A DNA stretch of 64,000 bases, from contig JANSXA010000009.1 in NCBI GenBank assembly GCA_024743175.1, positions 124,001 through 188,000 on the forward strand. Reading direction: 5' to 3'. The notes below the pieces were generated by a model, which was not told where the DNA came from, did no database searches, and worked only from the letters and a program-made list of their open reading frames with translations. A program made the position numbers and the translations under genes. Numbering within the stretch: the first letter of the stretch is position 1; every line of letters starts with the position of its first letter. Below are positions 423 to 64,000 of the stretch, in pieces. Origin of the DNA: Pseudomonadaceae bacterium. GTDB lineage: Bacteria; Pseudomonadota; Gammaproteobacteria; Pseudomonadales; Azotimanducaceae.

Positions 423-1885
423 CAGCTTCTCCCCGCTGTTTTCGACAGCGCATCCGACGCCACAAGCCGATCATCAAAAGCGTATTTCACACCTGCAATG
501 TCCTGTTCCGGTTCGTGACCTTTGCCGGCAATAAGTACCGTGTCACCTGCACCAGCCATCGCAACAGCTGCGTAAATGGCGTTACGCCGATCTGGCTCAC
601 ACACAACCCGATCGCTCCGCTCTGAAACAACGCCTGCCATCATGTCGGCAATAATCTGCAGAGGGTCTTCGCTGCGGGGATTGTCCGCAGTGAACCAGCT
701 GCGATCGCTGCTATCTGCGGCCACTGCACCCATCATTGACCGCTTACCGCTATCCCGGTCTCCACCACACCCGACAACACAGTAAAGTTGCGCTTCGCAG
801 GTCTGCCTCAAAGCGTGCAGCACCTTCTCCAACGCATCCGGCGTGTGTGCGTAATCAACAACCACCGTAGGCTGGTTGGGCTGCCCTGAAACAACTTCCA
901 TGCGACCCGGCACGCCTGCCATCTCGGTCACCGCGTCGATGATTTTCGACAAAGGATATTCAAGGGCGGCCAGTGTGGCCATCGCTAGCGTGACGTTTGC
1001 AACAGCAAAGTCAGCAAGTACAGGCAGCACCGCCTCACAATCACCCAGAGGTGTCTGCCATTTCACCCGCAGCCCTTGCGCATGCCGTTCATGTTTCCAG
1101 CGCCAGTCACCCGCCTGACCCACTCGCACCACCGGGCAGGAGCAGAGCTGCGTCAGCTCCTGCCCAAACTCATCGTCGACGTTGATGATCGCCGCCCGCA
1201 AGGACCACTGGGTAAACAGCTTCGCTTTTGCTTCAGCGTAGGCAGCCATGCTGCCGTGGTAATCGAGGTGGTCGCGACTCAGGTTGGTAAACAGGGCAAT
1301 ATCGAATTGGACCGCTGATGCGCGGTTCTGATCCAGTGCGTGTGAACTGACCTCCATGCACACACCCTGCAGACCCGCCTGACGCATATCCGACAGCTGC
1401 CGCTGCAATGCAACCGAGTTGCCAGTTGTCATTCCTTCATCAACCAGGGAATCCAATGACCCCCAGCCCAGGGTCCCACAATAACCCATGGGTGTACCCA
1501 GACGGCTCGTTAGATCGGCTATGTGGTAGGCCACAGATGTTTTTCCGTTGGTGCCGGTGACGCCGATACAGGTCATTTGAGCACTGGGATGACGATAAAA
1601 CCGGGCGGCAAGCTCACCTCGACGCTGAGCCAGATCAACAACCTCGCAAACACAGGAGTCCGGCTCAGCCTGACTGAGCCTGGTTTGTTTCGCTGCCGCT
1701 GAGTCTATCAAAAGTGCCTGCGCACCACGCGCAACCGCATCGCGACAATGTCGGAGCAGAACTTCCTCGTCAGATGCCACCGCAATATAGCCAAAACCAG
1801 GCTGCACCTGTTGTGTGTGCTCAGCCAATCCGGTCAGCTCCAGGGCAGGTACGGTGTCGTCATCAAGAAGTGCGCGCAGATTCAC
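422..1885 (-). CDS. murE: UDP-MurNAc-tripeptide ligase MurE (meso-diaminopimelate adding)
   Basis: Cytoplasmic Mur ligase that adds the third amino acid to UDP-MurNAc-L-Ala-D-Glu using ATP. The 487-residue length is normal. The ATP-binding loop GTNGKT lies at residues 111-116, the conserved SSHALDQ segment follows, and the AEAKAKLF segment carries the lysine expected to be carbamylated. The DNPR motif near residue 400 is the signature for meso-diaminopimelate over lysine. The start overlaps the ftsI stop (ATGA type) and the stop overlaps the mraY start, so it sits in the dcw operon. No MurF-like domain is fused to it. Confidence 0.96.
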
Positions 1886-15862: not shown

Positions 15863-16912
15863 ATGACCCAGTTAACCCGATTCATATTTGTACCTGCGCT
15901 CATTGGCGCGCTGGTCGGTCTGGCCATAATCATCCTGAACAGTACCGCGGACGACAACCGTCCCGGCTATGCCAATGCCGTCTCCCGTGCAGCACCGGCG
16001 GTTGTGAACATTTTTTCAACCAAAATCACGCAACGCAGCCCGCTCTGTCGGATTCCCGCTTACCGAGCTCTGTGTGAGGCTTTTCCAGGACAGCAGCAGC
16101 TGCAGAATTCATTGGGTTCAGGTGTCATCGTGCGGGCTGACGGTTATGTGCTGACCAACCAGCATGTGGTGGAAGGCGCCGACGAGATCATTGTCATGTT
16201 TGCCAACAATCAGACAACAACCGCCGAGGTCATCGGCACCGACAGCCACACTGATCTTGCGGTTATCAAAGTTGCAGCCACCGGTTTGCCGGTGATCGCA
16301 GAACTGGGTGACGAGCAGCCGCGGGTTGGCGACGTTGCGTTGGCCATTGGCAACCCATTCGGCCTGGGTCACAGTGTTTCGCAAGGCATCATCAGCGCCT
16401 TTTCCCGCACCTTGATCACCAACAGCCCCTACGACGATTTTATTCAGACGGATGCTGCCATCAGCCCGGGCAATTCTGGCGGCGCCCTGGTTGATCACGA
16501 AGGTCGATTACTGGGTATTAACACCATGATCTACTCCCAGTCAGGCGGATCAGAAGGTATTGGCTTTGCTATTCCGGCGAATATTGCGTTGTCGGTGATG
16601 GAGCAGATTGTTCAATCCGGACGGGTTATCCGCGGCTGGCTGGGTGTGAATCTACGTCCTCAACCGATGCCCGGCGGACCTTCAGGTTTGCTGGTCATTG
16701 GCGTTAATCCAGGCGGCCCCGCATTCAACGCTGGACTGCGACCCGGTGACCACGTGCTGTCTATCAACCAGATTCCGGCAAGCAACCTTTACACCGTCAC
16801 TGATGTGATCGCCAACGCAAAACCCGGCAGCGAACTCAATATTGAAGTGATGCGCGAGCAGCAGCGATTCCGCGCTACTGCCGTTGCAGGCGAGCTGCCA
16901 GATTCGATTTAG
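15863..16912 (+). CDS. degS: Periplasmic serine protease DegS/AlgW
   Basis: Inner-membrane-anchored protease that starts the sigmaE response by cleaving the anti-sigma factor after sensing misfolded outer-membrane proteins. One N-terminal membrane anchor (about 7-26), a trypsin-like domain with catalytic His101, Asp131 and Ser205 (PGNSGGAL), and one PDZ domain from about 255. A single PDZ distinguishes it from DegP/DegQ. Odd: a short insertion near residues 60-75 contains two cysteines ([14 protein letters not shown]), possibly a disulphide. The stop overlaps the hisD end in convergent orientation. Confidence 0.93.
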
Positions 16913-49860: not shown

Positions 49861-49894
49861 TATGCACACACCGCTAATCAACGAGAACATCCGC

Positions 49895-50383
49895 ATGCGT
49901 ATTGGTGTGGTCAGCGATACCCACAACAATTTGAAGAACGTGGCTAAGATAGTTGAACTGTTCAACGCCGCAGATGTTGATCACGTTATCCATACGGGTG
50001 ACATCACTCAGGCCAAAACCATCAGTGTTTTTGCCCACTTGAATGCGCCCATGTCTGGCGTCTTTGGTAACAATGACCAGGAGCGTGACTCCCTGGAAGC
50101 GGCCATCGTCGAACAGGGTTTTGATTTTCACGAACCACCTTTCACGCCGGTCTGGGCCGGGCGCCAGTTAATAGTTGTACATGACCCACTGGAATTTGAA
50201 GGACACCTGCATCAGGATCACGAGCTTGCACTGCACGGCCACACGCACCTGTATCGGCACGAACAGTGGGGAAAACAGACGACAATTTTTAATCCCGGTG
50301 AATGTGCAGGACACATGCAGGGTTACAACGCTATCGGCATTGTCGACCTGACTACCCTGCAGACTGAGTTGCTGCGTTTTTAA
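49895..50383 (+). CDS. Metallophosphoesterase, YfcE/MJ0936 family
   Basis: Small phosphodiesterase with the calcineurin-like metal site: SDTHNN near residue 7, HTGDI, GNND, and HGHTHLYRH. Such enzymes cleave artificial phosphodiesters; the natural substrate is unknown. ATG at 49895 (162 residues, MRIGVVSDTHNN) is preferred to ATG at 49862, which sits in the T-tract of the preceding terminator. The 3' end overlaps the convergent exporter gene by about 30 bases. Confidence 0.86.
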   Translation: MRIGVVSDTHNNLKNVAKIVELFNAADVDHVIHTGDITQAKTISVFAHLNAPMSGVFGNNDQERDSLEAAIVEQGFDFHEPPFTPVWAGRQLIVVHDPLEFEGHLHQDHELALHGHTHLYRHEQWGKQTTIFNPGECAGHMQGYNAIGIVDLTTLQTELLRF

Positions 50384-52466
50384 TCTCGAGCGGGTGCAAC
50401 TGCCCGTCGCGCAGCTCGTACACCCGATCCGCCGCCGCAGCAAACCCCCAGTCATGGGTGACCACAATACGGCTGCAGGTGAGACTGCCGACCAGCGCCT
50501 GAATATGCCTGACACTGTCCTGGTCGAGGTTGGCAGTGCACTCATCCAGAAACAGGTAGTCTGGCTCGCGATACAGCGCGCGTGCCAGCACCAGCCGCTG
50601 CATCTGTCCGGTGGATAAGCCACTACTGAGTTCACCAATCGGGCTGAGATACTGCAGCGGCATCTGCTCAACAACTTCGCGCATCCCCACCATTTCAAGA
50701 CAAGCCAGCACACGCGGTAAGTCAGGTGCTTGAAACAGAGTAATATTTTCCAGAATTGTGCCACTGAAAAAAGTATCCCCCTGCATGACACAGGCACTGA
50801 GGCCGCGCAGGGATTGAACGACTGCACCTTGCACAGGCCGATGGCCCATCAGAACCTGACCCGCAGACGGAGCCACAAAGCCCATCAGCAATTTCAGCAA
50901 TGTCGTTTTTCCGGTGCCTGAATCGCCAACAATGGCAATCCATTGCCCCGGTGAAATCTTAAGATTCGCCTGCTGCAGTAACCAGGGACCGACTTCACTG
51001 TGGCGGAAGGACACAGCATTGAGGGACAGATCGCGCACTTCCCGGTTATCCATCGACGTTGCAACCGCAGCAGTCTCCGCAGCCTGCATCTCAGGTTGCG
51101 CAAACCAGATATCCGCAAGCCGATCAAGATGGGTTGTCATGGCCCGCAGGTTCAGCCACTGGTCAACAAGACTGCGCAGCCGCTCGGTGAAATGGCTGCG
51201 ATAACTTAAAAATGCAAACAACATGCCGACGGTTAAGCTACCTGCAAGCACAGCGTGAGCTGCCAGATAAATCACCGCAATCAACTCTGCGCCAGCCACA
51301 AATATTGCGCCTGTACCGAGACCCAGCTGCGTCTGTTGCAGACCCAGAGCCTGCTGCAGGGTTTTTGCATGCAGGTTCTGCCACTGGGACAAACGCGTGC
51401 TTTCCTGTTGGTACGCTTTGACGTTGAAGATAGACCGGACACTTTCAATCAGGTGCGATTGCTCCTGCGCCTGTGCCACCACAACGCCAAGGGTCTGCTG
51501 ACGCAACCGCCCTACGGCCAGCATCTGTAACAGTAGAAAGATAGTGTGTGTAGCTACAACAACCGTTGCTATCACCGGGTGATAAACAAAAAGTACAACC
51601 AGACTGAGCAGCACCATGACTGCATCCACAAGCATTACAGCCAGGCCCTGGGTAAAAAGCTCGCGTACAGGTTGCAACGACGCAAACCGGGACACCACAT
51701 CACCTACATGGCGGGATTCAAACCAGTCGTTAGGGAGCCGCAGCAGGTGTTGCAACAGATAGCCACCCAGATAGAACGACAGCGTAAATCCCAACCGCAG
51801 ACTCACCAGACCGCGCAGCAAATGTACACCCACGCGTAACAACAGCAACAGACCAAAACCCATACACAACACACTGATCAGCGCCTTGTCACCGCTGAGC
51901 AGAGCATCATCCACTGTCCACTGCACATGCCAGGGCCCCAGCAGTACAAGTACCTGCAATGCCAGCGTCAGTAAGCCCAACAGATAAAGCTGGCCGCGGC
52001 CACGTTGCAATGACCCCCACAGCTGCTTCAACCCCAGACGCGCAGGCGCAGGTTGTGCAGCCATACCCTCAACATCTGGCCAGAGTTCCAGCGCCACGCC
52101 GGTAAATTTTTCACTTATTTCCTGCCAGGAACAGGTTAATCGCCCCAGATTCGGATCGTGGATCACGCATCCTCTGGTGCGAACCGCAACAAGCACTACA
52201 AAGTGATCCATCTGCCAATGCAGGATTGCAGGACGTTTCAGCTGCTTCAGCCCGTCCGGTTCGCAGCGGATACCTCGCGCCTGCAAACCCAGCTGCACAG
52301 CCATCACTCTGATCGATTGCAGCGACAACACCTGCGAGGAGCCCGCAAACTGATGGCGCAATCTGTACAGATCAATGTCTGAGTTGTAGACGTGTGCAAC
52401 CATGGCGAGGCATGCCAGACCACACTCGTTGCGCGTATCCTGCAGGTACACTGGCGGCGTTTTCAT
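50352..52466 (-). CDS. Peptidase-containing bacteriocin ABC exporter (CvaB/RaxB type)
   Basis: Exporter that cleaves double-glycine leaders and pumps the mature peptide out. The 704 residues have an N-terminal C39 peptidase with Gln9, Cys15 (RNECGLACLAMVAHVY), His88 (DHFVVLV) and Asp104 (HDPNLG), so it should be active. Six membrane spans cover about 160-430, then an ATPase with GDSGTGKTT, signature LSTGQ (variant of LSGGQ) and Walker B YLFLDECTANLD. ATG at 52466 overlaps the adaptor stop (ATGA). No precursor peptide lies next to it; the best candidate is at 63352-63585. Confidence 0.92.
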   Translation of the reverse strand: MKTPPVYLQDTRNECGLACLAMVAHVYNSDIDLYRLRHQFAGSSQVLSLQSIRVMAVQLGLQARGIRCEPDGLKQLKRPAILHWQMDHFVVLVAVRTRGCVIHDPNLGRLTCSWQEISEKFTGVALELWPDVEGMAAQPAPARLGLKQLWGSLQRGRGQLYLLGLLTLALQVLVLLGPWHVQWTVDDALLSGDKALISVLCMGFGLLLLLRVGVHLLRGLVSLRLGFTLSFYLGGYLLQHLLRLPNDWFESRHVGDVVSRFASLQPVRELFTQGLAVMLVDAVMVLLSLVVLFVYHPVIATVVVATHTIFLLLQMLAVGRLRQQTLGVVVAQAQEQSHLIESVRSIFNVKAYQQESTRLSQWQNLHAKTLQQALGLQQTQLGLGTGAIFVAGAELIAVIYLAAHAVLAGSLTVGMLFAFLSYRSHFTERLRSLVDQWLNLRAMTTHLDRLADIWFAQPEMQAAETAAVATSMDNREVRDLSLNAVSFRHSEVGPWLLQQANLKISPGQWIAIVGDSGTGKTTLLKLLMGFVAPSAGQVLMGHRPVQGAVVQSLRGLSACVMQGDTFFSGTILENITLFQAPDLPRVLACLEMVGMREVVEQMPLQYLSPIGELSSGLSTGQMQRLVLARALYREPDYLFLDECTANLDQDSVRHIQALVGSLTCSRIVVTHDWGFAAAADRVYELRDGQLHPLEIKNAATQSAG

Positions 52467-53689
52467 AAACGCTGCCAGGCTGCCACCAGCGGCTGCAGCA
52501 GCCAACGCCAGAGTGGCTGCTCCTGAAGTACGATATCAGCTTCAACCGACATTCCAGCCGGCAGCGTATCTATTGCGTCAGGCATTACCTGCACGTCAAC
52601 CCAGGCCCGGTAAATTGGTTGGACCGCATCCGTTACACTGCTGATCTGACGCACAACGCCAATGCCAGCACCAAAACGCTGATAGGGAAAGCCACTGAAG
52701 CGCAGACGCACAGACATACCCGGGGTTACGCGCCCGGCCGCAGTGGAAGGCAGTGCAAGCAGCACCTGATATATTGAATCAGTTTCCCGTACCAGGGTGA
52801 GAACCGATTTGCCAGCGCTGATCTGCTCACCCGCCTGCACCTGCAGATCATCAACTCTGCCCGCAACCGATGCTTTCACCAGCCTGAAATCTTTGCGCTG
52901 CACAGCAGCCAGCTGTTGTTCCAGCTGTAAAACCTCCATGTCGTATTCGGCTTGATGCAACAGCGATCTCTGCTGCTGTAGCGCGATACGCGTTTCCAGA
53001 TCCAGGGCATCTGCTGCGAGCGAGCTTGCAGCCCGACGCGCCAACAGCAGCGTTTCCTCCGCACGAAAGTGCTGCTGGTGACTTTGATCAAGATCACTCT
53101 CACTCAACCAGCCTTGTTGTGCGAGATGCTGTGCTTTCTGCAATTGTCGGCTGGATAGCTCAAGCTGGCGCAACAACATGCGCTTCTGACGACGTGCGCT
53201 GGCTTGTTGTACCTGGTTCGCAACCATCGCGTCTTTTAGTCGACGCTCTTCCAACACCTGTGTTTTGACATATTCCGCACGGGTAGCACGAAGACTGCGC
53301 AATTGTGCCTGTATAGAACGTGCTGCAGTCAGGTTGGCGGAACGTCCACTGAGGTCATGCACAGCCCGGTTCAGGCTGAACAACCGTGCATCCTGCGAAA
53401 CACTATCACCGTTGGCAACCAGCATCTGTGCAACGATCCCGGCTTCCGGCGCGGTAACCACAACGGGTTTCTGCAGCGGTTGAACCTTACCGCCTATGGC
53501 AATTTTTTCAGCGTAGTTAAGCTGAGATAAGAAAAACAGGGCGAGGCATAAGCCCATACCCGTGGCGATAGAGAGCGATGTCAGCCAGGGATGCTGCCAG
53601 GGCAGAATAGTGCCTGCACCCTGTGCCTCGGGTAGCAGAACTATATTACGGAAAAGGCTTGGCTTTGGATCTGGGACCACAAGACACAT
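52463..53689 (-). CDS. HlyD/CvaA-type membrane fusion protein
   Basis: Periplasmic adaptor linking the exporter to an outer-membrane channel such as TolC. The 408 residues have a short cytoplasmic tail (PSLFRNIVLLPEAQG), one membrane helix (about 34-55), a lipoyl half (PVVVTAPEAGIVAQMLVANGDSV), a long coiled-coil hairpin (about 105-260), the second lipoyl half (ASVAGRVDDLQVQAGEQISAGKSVLTLV) and a beta-barrel. The pattern is that of CvaA. ATG at 53689 has no clear ribosome binding site. No TolC gene is in the window. Confidence 0.9.
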   Translation of the reverse strand: MCLVVPDPKPSLFRNIVLLPEAQGAGTILPWQHPWLTSLSIATGMGLCLALFFLSQLNYAEKIAIGGKVQPLQKPVVVTAPEAGIVAQMLVANGDSVSQDARLFSLNRAVHDLSGRSANLTAARSIQAQLRSLRATRAEYVKTQVLEERRLKDAMVANQVQQASARRQKRMLLRQLELSSRQLQKAQHLAQQGWLSESDLDQSHQQHFRAEETLLLARRAASSLAADALDLETRIALQQQRSLLHQAEYDMEVLQLEQQLAAVQRKDFRLVKASVAGRVDDLQVQAGEQISAGKSVLTLVRETDSIYQVLLALPSTAAGRVTPGMSVRLRFSGFPYQRFGAGIGVVRQISSVTDAVQPIYRAWVDVQVMPDAIDTLPAGMSVEADIVLQEQPLWRWLLQPLVAAWQRL

Positions 53690-61419: not shown

Positions 61420-62979
61420 TTAAGATTTTGATTTCTTCTGCTTCCTGCCGTTTTTTTTATCACCACCTTCATCTGCAGCCGCATCAACGTCATCCAGGCG
61501 TTGCTGCAACGCAGCTGTCACCGTCCGCAACACCTGCAAACGCGCGTGACGCTTGTCGTTAGCTGCGATCAGGTGCCAGGGGGCATAAGGCGTATTGGTG
61601 CGGGCCACCATGTCATCCGCAGCCAGCTGATATTCATCCCACTTTTCGCGGTTTCGATAGTCTTCCTCGGTGAGCTTGTACTTTTTGTAAGGCGTCAGCG
61701 CTCGGGCTTCAAAACGCTGAAGCTGCTCGTCAGCATCTATCTGCAACCAGAATTTACACACCACCATGCCCGCGTCAAACAGGCTTTCTTCAAACTCATT
61801 AATTTCCTCATAAGCACGGCTCCACTCAAATTCCGTAGCAAAGCCTTCCACCCGCTCCACCAGCACCCGCCCATACCAGCTGCGATCAAAAACCACATCA
61901 TGCCCTGGCTTAGGAATTCGGGTCCAGAAGCGCCACAGATAATGATGTGCTTTTTCCGCCTCATTTGGAGCGCCGATAGCAATCACCCGCACATACTCAA
62001 CAGGCAGGGCTCTGACAAGCCGGCGAATGGCACCACCCTTGCCCGCCGCATCAACACCTTCGAACACAAACACGCAGGAGACACCGGCCTGCTGAGCTTT
62101 ATGCGCCAGTTGATTGAGATTTGACTGCAAAGATTGCAGGTCGGACGAATAAGTATCCTGGTCCGCGGACAGGGTCAGATCAATCTGCCCCAGCAAAGAC
62201 TGCGGACTCAGATTCGACACCGGCGGCGTTAAGCTGGGCGCGAGATCCGGTTGTTCCAGACGCGCTGCAAGCGCGTCAGCGATATGTCGGCCAACCGTCA
62301 ACGTGGCGTAATACTGATCAGTGCTTTCAATAATCGACCAGGGAGCGGCGAGCGTGTGAGTGCGACGTACCAGGGCTTCTATCTGCTGGAATAATTCGTC
62401 TGACTGCTGCAGCAATTCCCAATCGTGCTGGGCAAAGTCCCAATGCTTTTCCGGGTCCTGCTCAGCTGCCTTGAGGCGTTTCTGCAGTATATCGTCAGGC
62501 AGATGCAGCCAGTACTTCAGGACCAGAGTGCCATCGTCCACCAGCTGCTGTTCAAATCGACTGATGTGTTCAGCGGCACGTTCAAACTGAGCCTTGGTCC
62601 ATTCTTCCTGCAGCCCGACGCGCAGAAACGAGGTCGGCCAGCCGCCCAGATACACTCCGATCTGGCCATCAGCGGGCAGGCGACGCCAGTATCGACCCAG
62701 CACGGGACGCTCCGCGTCTTCATTGTGTTCTGCGCCGAACGTGATGTGGTTCTGCATGTAACGCGCGTCCATCCAATCATGCAGCGTGCGAAACAGATTG
62801 ACTGCACCGGGACGGTCGTCCCCGGCAATTAACAGGACAACTGAAAAATTCTCGTGGCGCAGGTCAAACTGGGCATTCAACAGATCAACCCGCAAAGCCT
62901 CAATCTGCGCATCGAACACATCTTTACTGATCGTATTGCCTATTTCAGCGGCGGCAAAGAGACCTGACGATTCGTTCAC
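61420..62979 (-). CDS. pap: Polyphosphate:AMP phosphotransferase (class II PPK2)
   Basis: Makes ADP from AMP with polyphosphate. Two fused PPK2 domains in 519 residues: the first (about 25-240) has a degenerate P-loop (LLIAGDDRPGAVN), the second (about 275-500) has the proper GVDAAGKGGAIRRLV and Walker B-like DVVFDRSWYGRVLVERVEGF. The tail is rich in lysine. GTG start at 62979 after an in-frame upstream region with no better start. The combination of a dead N-terminal and a live C-terminal domain is typical for PAP. Confidence 0.92.
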   Translation of the reverse strand: MNESSGLFAAAEIGNTISKDVFDAQIEALRVDLLNAQFDLRHENFSVVLLIAGDDRPGAVNLFRTLHDWMDARYMQNHITFGAEHNEDAERPVLGRYWRRLPADGQIGVYLGGWPTSFLRVGLQEEWTKAQFERAAEHISRFEQQLVDDGTLVLKYWLHLPDDILQKRLKAAEQDPEKHWDFAQHDWELLQQSDELFQQIEALVRRTHTLAAPWSIIESTDQYYATLTVGRHIADALAARLEQPDLAPSLTPPVSNLSPQSLLGQIDLTLSADQDTYSSDLQSLQSNLNQLAHKAQQAGVSCVFVFEGVDAAGKGGAIRRLVRALPVEYVRVIAIGAPNEAEKAHHYLWRFWTRIPKPGHDVVFDRSWYGRVLVERVEGFATEFEWSRAYEEINEFEESLFDAGMVVCKFWLQIDADEQLQRFEARALTPYKKYKLTEEDYRNREKWDEYQLAADDMVARTNTPYAPWHLIAANDKRHARLQVLRTVTAALQQRLDDVDAAADEGGDKKNGRKQKKSKS

Positions 62980-63049
62980 TGAAACCCACTACCCGTAACC
63001 CTCGAGGGAGCTGAGTATGCGGGAAAAACACCGGTGGCTGAAGTAGACC

Positions 63050-63289
63050 TTAGTCAGCGCTTGTGTTTTCTGCGCGCCTGGAAAGCATCAGCAGATGTTC
63101 ATGAAACAGACCAGCTACGATGGCGGCAAATCCGCTGATAGCAATAACCACGTGAAGTTTTTCATCCACTATGGCGCCGGTCATATTACCCAGCACAACC
63201 AGCGCAGTGACAACAATCAGTGAAGACAGAACAATTCGGCTCACTTTACTTTTTATCAGAGTGGGCATGGCTGTATACAACTGAGGCAT
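63050..63289 (-). CDS. Small two-helix membrane protein, candidate bacteriocin immunity protein
   Basis: The 79-residue product has two membrane helices (about 17-40 and 46-68) joined by DEKLHV, with charged ends, and no family I recognise. ATG at 63289 has a good GGGAG seven bases upstream. It lies 62 bases after the double-glycine peptide gene, on the same strand and beyond a strong terminator, so it would be expressed by read-through at a lower level. That arrangement and topology suit an immunity protein, but no sequence motif proves it. The two-helix form also fits many unrelated small proteins. Confidence 0.6.
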   Translation of the reverse strand: MPQLYTAMPTLIKSKVSRIVLSSLIVVTALVVLGNMTGAIVDEKLHVVIAISGFAAIVAGLFHEHLLMLSRRAENTSAD

Positions 63290-63315
63290 CTTTTTCTCCC
63301 GTTGAAAAAAGCGAA

Positions 63316-63340
63316 ATAAAAAAGGAGGCCGAAGCCTCCT
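63316..63340 (-). terminator. UUCG-loop terminator after the double-glycine peptide gene
   Basis: On the minus strand arms AGGAGGC and GCCTCCT enclose TTCG and are followed by TTTTTATTT. It begins 12 bases after the peptide stop and ends 27 bases before the next ATG; too little space remains for a promoter, so the downstream gene must depend on read-through. Confidence 0.9.
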
Positions 63341-63351
63341 GAAGGGGGAAA

Positions 63352-63585
63352 TTACTGACAGGATTGAGCAGGGTCTTCGTTCAGCGCGTGATAAATCGCA
63401 ACACCGGCGGAGACAATGCCACCCAGGGCCAAAGCACCAGCAACCAATGGCGTTGCGGCGACGCCAGCGGCGAGCGTCATGCCAAGCGCTGTGCTTGTCG
63501 CGACTCCCCATTCGGTGGAGACCCCACCGTTGACTGTTTCGAGCTGATCAAGATCCAGTTCATAGAACGTTTTTGAGTTGTGCAT
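63352..63585 (-). CDS. Double-glycine-leader peptide, putative bacteriocin/microcin precursor
   Basis: The 77-residue product has a leader ending YELDLDQLETVNGG (residues 8-21), matching the ELxxxELxxVxGG pattern cut by C39 peptidases. The predicted mature peptide of 56 residues starts VSTEWG, has a long Ala/Gly-rich hydrophobic stretch with small-residue spacing (LAAGVAATPLVAGALALGG), and ends NEDPAQSCQ with a single Cys. I recognise no known bacteriocin. ATG at 63585 is chosen since it puts the leader at standard length; a TTG at 63696 would add 37 unrelated residues. The exporter at 50352-53689 is the obvious processing partner. Confidence 0.8.
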   Translation of the reverse strand: MHNSKTFYELDLDQLETVNGGVSTEWGVATSTALGMTLAAGVAATPLVAGALALGGIVSAGVAIYHALNEDPAQSCQ

Positions 63586-63660
63586 TTTAATTGCATCCAA
63601 GTTGAGAATCGGTATTGATTGACAAACAGAATGCTTGAGGATCTGAACGCAAGGCAAGTC

Positions 63661-63673
63661 AATCAGGCTGATT
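63661..63673. promoter_or_regulatory. Palindrome AATCAG-G-CTGATT upstream of the peptide gene
   Basis: A perfect 13-base inverted repeat with core ATCAG-S-CTGAT, 75 bases before the peptide ATG. It overlaps a TTGACT on the minus strand (63662-63657) that could be a -35, but no good -10 is found at the right distance. The same core recurs at 63696-63710. Confidence 0.5.
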
Positions 63674-63695
63674 TCCAGTGCTTTTCCACACTGCA

Positions 63696-63710
63696 ATATC
63701 AGCCTGATAT
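63696..63710. promoter_or_regulatory. Palindrome ATATCAG-C-CTGATAT, second copy
   Basis: A perfect 15-base inverted repeat sharing the ATCAG-S-CTGAT core of the copy at 63661-63673; the centres are 36 bases apart. Two copies at this distance suggest cooperative binding of a dimeric repressor or activator controlling the peptide gene. Confidence 0.5.
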
Positions 63711-63731
63711 CAGATGTAGTGAATTGACTTG

Positions 63732-64000
63732 TCAGCGTGCCAGTTGAATCGATTTGTTAGTATCAGACAAGACCGGTGTGGCGGCACCAACATTACCCCA
63801 TCCCGCAAGCGACGCGGTGACTTGCTCACGCACCAGCCTGTCCGGCAGAGCAAAAGAGCCGGTTCTGTTCACTGCTATCACCTCACCGGCAGTATTGCGC
63901 AGCACCAGCGCCTGATGCGCATCGTTATCCCAGCGATAAACAACCTGATCAGCTTGCGGGGCGACCTCGAGGTGTACGCCCGCCTGCACCGTCGTATCAG
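63732..64000 (-). CDS. C-terminal part of an unidentified protein (runs off the right edge)
   Basis: The last 89 residues of a protein whose start is outside the window; the frame is open through base 64000 on the minus strand. Visible text is hydrophilic beta-rich sequence (QADQVVYRWDNDAHQALVLRN, GEVIAVNRTGSFALPDRL, SLAGWGNVGA) with no motif I can name. It ends 146 bases upstream of the peptide gene on the same strand. A GTG near 63989 is probably internal. It could be unrelated or part of the bacteriocin locus. Confidence 0.55.
   Translation of the reverse strand, partial: DTTVQAGVHLEVAPQADQVVYRWDNDAHQALVLRNTAGEVIAVNRTGSFALPDRLVREQVTASLAGWGNVGAATPVLSDTNKSIQLAR

Follow-up and report, generated by a model that had tools for sequence, protein, structure and literature searches.

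The gene for a small double-glycine (GG) leader peptide in the window, by which we mean the whole 64-kb stretch of DNA analysed (source genome 4.72 Mb in 18 contigs), is best explained as encoding a class II microcin-like bacteriocin that is accompanied by an immunity partner and its own C39 peptidase exporter, a reading to which we assign a probability of roughly 0.7. The peptide is small, probably carries no modifications and would be a bacteriocin of the class II microcin type. Cleavage would take place after the GG, as expected from the C39 family, and the 56-residue core would exit through the exporter, an HlyD-type adaptor and a TolC-type channel whose gene lies elsewhere. Once outside, the hydrophobic core may act at the inner membrane of susceptible neighbouring cells, and the small membrane protein whose gene comes directly after that of the peptide would protect the producer.

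The open reading frame (ORF), the 21-residue GG leader and the 56-residue core with its one Cys were all found on the minus strand where a preliminary description of this DNA had placed them (Table 1). The leader reads MHNSKTFYELDLDQLETVNGG, and the core ends in the polar tail NEDPAQSCQ. An AF2 model of the peptide consisted of a single helix spanning residues 24–70, predicted with low confidence (mean pLDDT 52.7). When the 64 kb were scanned with a GG-leader motif, which had been written after the peptide had been seen, the peptide ORF was the sole match, and in 40 first-order Markov versions of the window the motif occurred 0.1 times on average and at most once. A looser leader pattern yielded one extra ORF (16118–16372), which was judged unconvincing. 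A chance ORF, or an ordinary hydrophobic membrane peptide that is not exported, would be in keeping with the start of the window gene, where no clear Shine-Dalgarno stretch or other clear ribosome-binding site precedes the ATG, but the low motif rate in the randomised windows and the eight homologues described below, with an invariant GG and the same type of downstream gene, reduce the likelihood of this explanation to almost nothing.

Table 1. Positions of the peptide gene and associated features in the window
Feature	Position	Strand	Basis
Precursor peptide gene, 77 aa + stop	63352..63585	-	ORF call, homologues, alignments
Leader, 21 residues ending ETVNGG	63523..63585	-	GG invariant in 9/9 homologues
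Core, 56 residues, Ala/Gly-rich, net charge -3, hydrophobic stretch, one mid-core Pro	63355..63522	-	
Small membrane protein, candidate immunity protein, 79 aa, two predicted helices	63050..63289	-	directly downstream of peptide gene
Terminator-like hairpin with U-run, attenuator candidate, between peptide and partner genes	63323..63340	-	hairpin scan, 1 found vs 0.7 expected in region shuffles
Conserved upstream element TGATATCAnnnTGATATTGCAnnGTGGA, 28 bp	63685..63712	-	5' end 127 nt upstream of peptide ATG
Peptidase-containing ABC exporter, 717 aa	50352..52505	-	Pfam Peptidase_C39 (107.8 bits), ABC_membrane, ABC_tran
C39 peptidase domain	52074..52451	-	Cys28, His101, Asp117 aligned with those of C39 structures
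Adaptor gene (HlyD-type membrane-fusion protein), overlapping the exporter gene	52463..53689	-	Pfam HlyD_3 54.5 bits

A homologue search of 58 genomes (the own genome and relatives) retrieved the peptide from the own genome and from G003, G006 and G008, which belong to the same genus (E 6e-20 to 2e-17). By a profile search of 206 genomes of the family, at E up to 0.001, the number of genomes with the peptide rose to nine, the window's included, the five further homologues being those of G468, G451, G466, G315 and G171 (E 4.7e-15 to 4.9e-4). Identity to the window peptide amounted to 45–57% for the genus homologues and 29–35% for the other five. Homologues without a GG leader had been named in advance as a finding that would speak against a bacteriocin, and the GG was retained in all nine peptides. 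Over the nine sequences, the invariant columns comprised an L, a V and the GG of the leader and one Gly in the core, and most cores shared a C-terminal pattern, an AG/SG...(A/G/S)(I/V/L)(Y/F/W) stretch followed by a short polar tail. The lone Cys noted in the preliminary description is indeed present in the window peptide, but it is not conserved, being found in that peptide only.

Sampling more broadly, a class-wide set of 369 genomes returned the own genome and two weak matches, G715 and G740, both with GG leaders. G740, a more distant member of the class, encodes two tandem GG-leader peptides with differing cores (L117:1208-1480 and 1492-1665, plus strand). Weak order-wide matches (E 0.003–0.0098) were kept out of the homologue count; on a second look, G326, one such match, gave no score, G279 scored again but lacked a GG leader there, and G407 showed a GG-leader peptide, yet one with a different glycine-rich core. 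Another GG-leader peptide, of 70 aa and with a glycine-rich core, was seen in G009 of the same genus (L033:5066-5278, minus strand), with a different C39 exporter lying a few kb away. Among named genomes, a single-sequence scan gave no relative of the peptide, and a profile scan gave three loci, taken as the three genus homologues (UBA4421, PL25a_bin.22 and IP29b_bin.155); the named matches are metagenome-assembled genomes of uncultured Gammaproteobacteria/Pseudomonadales. Searching plasmids with the peptide produced a single weak match, in Nonomuraea (E 0.6), viral contigs gave none, PADLOC reported nothing for the peptide or the small membrane partner, and a PDB search with the peptide profile returned nothing better than E 0.29. 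PHROGs gave weak matches to phage proteins, tape-measure proteins among them (best E 0.0056), which were taken as an effect of composition.

The strongest support for the bacteriocin reading comes, in our view, from the small membrane protein gene directly downstream, which the preliminary description had overlooked. A small hydrophobic ORF follows the peptide gene on the same strand in all nine loci. For the window protein, an ATG at 63289, preceded by GGGAG, was chosen as the start, the mechanical ORF beginning at 63511 and overlapping the peptide gene; starts were likewise chosen inside longer mechanical ORFs for the partners in G008, G468, G451, G466 and G315. Hydropathy analysis of eight of the nine partners (G171 left out) gave two separate segments in six and one in G003 and G451, and AF2 predicted helices at residues 15–37 and 42–78 of the window protein (mean pLDDT 66.7). 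The genus partner proteins are only 15–18% identical to that of the window, while the corresponding peptides share 45–57%, and it is therefore place and topology that tie the partners together, not sequence. The product is likely an immunity protein and is treated here as a candidate for that role. A conserved membrane protein in this position looks protective, which weighs against a self-directed lysis peptide that is released or activated at high density against part of its own population. Such a peptide would have a parallel in Neisseria gonorrhoeae, where bacteriocin-like peptides are described as mediating autolysis (PMC11798529), but no finding from the window or its relatives points to self-lysis, and we consider it highly improbable.

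The peptide and partner genes are separated by a stem-loop in all nine loci. Compared with 200 dinucleotide shuffles per locus (using the first 100 nt only for G451, G466 and G171), the intergenic fold reached z < -2 in six of the nine, namely G008, G003, G451, G466, G315 and G171, and was not unusual in the window (z -1.29), G006 (-1.37) and G468 (-1.61). The U-run that follows the hairpin in the window copy is absent in G008 and G468. In a class II microcin-like system the hairpin may hold the level of the immunity transcript below that of the peptide transcript; several of the hairpins resemble full terminators, so the two genes may also be separate transcripts. The hairpin is not a main support of the bacteriocin reading. 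A search of positions 62900–64000 against Rfam gave two matches, both far under their gathering scores.

The C39 peptidase exporter reported in the preliminary description was confirmed in the window. Its best PDB match was 4ry2, an ABC-type bacteriocin transporter, and its C39 domain aligned with the double-glycine protease domain 6mpz, with Cys28, His101 and Asp117, which we take to be the catalytic residues, in register. In the exporter CvaB, a Cys and a His are named as catalytic (PMC3335142). The adaptor scored 90.3 bits against TIGR01843, which is below the cut-off of that model, and its gene ends at 53689, about 9.7 kb from the peptide gene. No second C39 domain besides that of the window exporter was detected in the own genome (E 0.001), and the TolC-type OEP domain had eight matches there (G000), outside the exporter locus. 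At its 3' end, the exporter gene overlaps a convergent phosphodiesterase-like gene (49862–50383) by 32 bases (50352–50383), and the same overlap was seen in G006 (L010:3824-3855).

An exporter related to that of the window (38–53% identity) is present in each of the eight other genomes with the peptide. The absence of a conserved exporter from genomes carrying the peptide had been put forward as a second argument against a bacteriocin; with the window counted, a relative was found in nine of nine. The C39 domain itself was seen in eight of them, the G468 exporter lacking this part (residues 293–706 only) because the contig ends, and the exporter match in G315 crosses one TAA. Outside the genus the co-occurrence carries little weight, since 143 of the 206 family genomes have a C39 domain. 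Within the genus, such a domain was present in only eight of 40 genomes, and the four genomes with the peptide were all among these eight; the hand-computed chance of this, which ignores relatedness, is 70/91390, or approximately 8e-4. Twelve C39 matches were obtained in the genus, and ten besides that of the window could be aligned: three, at 46–52% identity to the window exporter, are those of the other peptide carriers, four are at approximately 35% and three at 28–29%, one of the last being the second C39 protein of G008. The C39 fragment G031:C383 gave no alignment match to the window exporter. No genus genome without the peptide was found to have an exporter of the close type.

In an exporter tree of 33 rows, the window exporter grouped with those of G006, G003 and G008 (support 100/99), a group that was extended by G451 (96/96) and G466 (94/96), and the exporters of G315 and G171 were placed elsewhere. 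Those of G435 and G436 formed the sister group of the six (91/96), and no GG peptide was seen in the 14 and 19 kb scanned around them. The outside rows of the tree were the best-scoring C39 loci, not all, and it omitted G468, G009, the second copy of G008, one copy each of G030 and G026, the long-frame loci o56–o58 and a G315 duplicate; the very long branches of rows o70 and o78 probably reflect wrong frames.

Gene order provides a further connection between the peptide and the exporter. In all four genus genomes the order is peptide ... GlyRS ... DUF1499, HlyD, ABC, phosphodiesterase, the glycyl-tRNA synthetase gene standing between the peptide/partner pair and the other four genes. This arrangement is contained in a single contig in the window and G006, and was inferred across contig ends in G003, where the break falls in HlyD, and in G008, where it falls in the SDR gene. 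The intervening genes vary, G003 having no SDR and regulator genes there, and PPK2 being seen in the window and G006. Among the five peptide genomes outside the genus, an exporter relative occurs in all five, with a C39 domain in four, and does not adjoin the peptide, the distance in G466 being approximately 122 kb. The microcin or bacteriocin proposed in the preliminary description thus gains support from a GG leader, an exporter relative and a downstream membrane protein, each present in nine of nine cases, and would have antimicrobial activity.

Upstream of the peptide gene, a conserved element was recognised by comparison of the upstream regions. A pattern based on the copies in the window, G006 and G008 was scanned with up to 3 mismatches. 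It occurred 17 times in 13 of the 206 family genomes, and a reversed control pattern gave 0 in every row. Five of the 17 sites lie upstream of the peptide (window, G006, G008, G451 and G466). Of the remaining 12, eight precede genes for response regulators of the GacA/UvrY type (with three nearly identical copies from a single genus among them), two precede the gene of a shared protein of unknown function, and two have no clear assignment. The shared protein, of 300 and 290 aa at L086 (G019) and L091 (G027), respectively, with the element at 1501, has an N-terminal membrane segment as judged by eye. Domain scans of three of the regulators, including one from the own genome, showed Response_reg and a LuxR-type domain; their best NCBIfam model was UvrY/SirA/GacA, at 254–265 bits and under the cut-off of 280. 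Approached from the regulator side, a close GacA-type gene was found in five of the nine peptide genomes (E 1e-35), and in all five a related element with 2–6 mismatches (8–11 in 25 shuffles) starts 124–132 nt before the match and in the same orientation. In the own genome this copy is located at G000:C15 ~200511 (L102), 124 nt before the regulator gene. At both loci scanned for it, the gene whose end immediately precedes the element and the GacA-type gene encodes an acyl-CoA dehydrogenase (L102:189-1373 and L098:237-1496, both plus strand). Before the peptide gene, a weak copy was seen in G468 (5 mismatches), and no clear element in G315 and G171 (6 and 7 mismatches, at other distances) or G003 (9). 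A consensus scan showed no sigma-70-type promoter at the upstream element, and none of the papers listed in a literature search dealt with this element at gacA-type genes.

The occurrence of one element before both the peptide and GacA-type genes suggests a common regulator, as far as can be judged from sequence. We tentatively extend this to a more ambitious proposal, which we hold to be possible and rather doubtful as a whole: that a new bacteriocin family of uncultured Pseudomonadales has its expression wired, through a shared element of at least 28 bp, to the regulator that controls the gene of a GacA/UvrY-type master regulator, with peptide/immunity and exporter as the two fixed halves of the system flanking the glycyl-tRNA synthetase gene. 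A link to GacA-type genes would also suit a density- or surface-linked programme, in which a non-toxic peptide, acting as a signal or in biofilm or surface functions, is exported on the GG-leader route and the downstream membrane protein serves as a receptor or export helper; GG-motif small proteins acting in biofilm development have been reported in Synechococcus (PMC4997328). A weapon is nevertheless a better fit to the patchy presence of the peptide (nine of 206 family genomes), to the fast divergence of the small membrane partner and to the near matches to bacteriocin models, and by eye no histidine kinase gene directly adjoins the pair in the window. We therefore regard a non-toxic role as quite improbable and retain the class II microcin-like bacteriocin.

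According to PMC9746304, experimental validation had by 2022 been achieved for only 10 class II microcins, most of them from E. coli, and others have been reported since, for example from Serratia (PMC13101503). The peptide/partner pair resembles a new bacterial weapon of a known kind, and the set of peptide, partner and exporter, in nine diverged versions from uncultured Pseudomonadales, offers a test set for peptide/immunity co-evolution. Through the element shared with GacA-type genes, the regulation of such peptides becomes accessible to experiment.

The relationship to described families was assessed with curated models, using Pfam for all nine peptides and the NCBIfam cut-offs for the window peptide only. 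For every one of the nine the top Pfam match was Bacteriocin_IIc or MccV (E 1.2e-5 to 0.097), in all cases below the cut-off. The window peptide had the best Bacteriocin_IIc score of the nine (PF10439; 22.0 bits versus a cut-off of 27.1). MccV (PF17508) gave matches under its cut-off in seven of the nine at E up to 0.1, the best being 26.2 bits for the G466 homologue against a cut-off of 27, and no MccV match was listed for the window peptide itself. With the lactobin A/cerein 7B model (TIGR03949), the window peptide reached 20.9 bits against a cut-off of 21.5. None of the nine peptides passes a curated Pfam model and the window peptide passes no NCBIfam model, and our strong claim is consequently that the peptide would work like a class II microcin, rather than that it formally belongs to a family. 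The earlier remark that no described family was recognised for the core holds in so far as no curated cut-off was reached, but it needs to be qualified by the near-misses to Bacteriocin_IIc and lactobin A/cerein 7B, in both of which the scoring region spans the leader and much of the core. These two families are mainly known from Gram-positive bacteria. A literature search covering titles and the beginnings of abstracts found no published description of this peptide family.

Class II microcins are described as having small inner-membrane immunity proteins (51–216 aa, median 82) encoded beside the peptide gene and cores that are mostly neutral or anionic (PMC10233263). The microcin V system as presented there (CvaC, Cvi, CvaB, CvaA and TolC; PMC10233263) resembles the window genes in its GG leader, its C39-ABC exporter with an HlyD-type adaptor, the location of the TolC gene elsewhere and the small membrane protein adjoining the peptide gene. 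It differs in that the exporter genes of the window are approximately 10 kb away from the peptide gene, with other genes between them, and in that the host does not belong to the Enterobacterales.

A second likeness, compared by description only, is to CdzC/CdzD and CdzI of Caulobacter, for which PMC5380434 gives peptides of 60–151 aa with a G[GAS] leader, a small-residue-rich core and a polar tail, type I export and a small membrane protein. The window peptide agrees with this outline, having 77 aa, a GG, a polar C-terminal tail and an adaptor gene approximately 9.7 kb away. There is, however, one peptide here versus two in Caulobacter, the window core has no GxxxG, and CdzI is given three helices in that account versus two predicted in the candidate immunity protein. 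The agreement in length, leader, polar charged tail, type I exporter within 10 kb and small membrane protein (PMC5380434) raises the alternative of a surface-retained toxin, which would aggregate on the outer membrane of the producer via glycine-zipper helices and kill on contact rather than by diffusing. Loose small-xxx-G-xxx-small patterns were indeed found in all eight peptides scanned, within the true cores (G003 included), and the window core contains small-residue patterns such as ALALGGIVS; in Cdz-like proteins the glycine zipper is expected to be free of interruptions by Pro or charge. Such loose patterns are nevertheless expected in any Ala/Gly-rich peptide and the GxxxG is missing from the window core, which makes retention at the surface unlikely in our judgement.

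For the class II microcin-like reading, a further parallel is provided by McbC/McbI of Moraxella catarrhalis, where, as described in PMC2761928, the gene directly after that of a GG-leader peptide encodes a small immunity protein (McbI, 74 aa) and dedicated secretion genes are present. This likeness is likewise one of description only, and the organisation differs: all four genes are transcriptionally linked in M. catarrhalis (PMC2761928), whereas exporter and peptide are split in the window.
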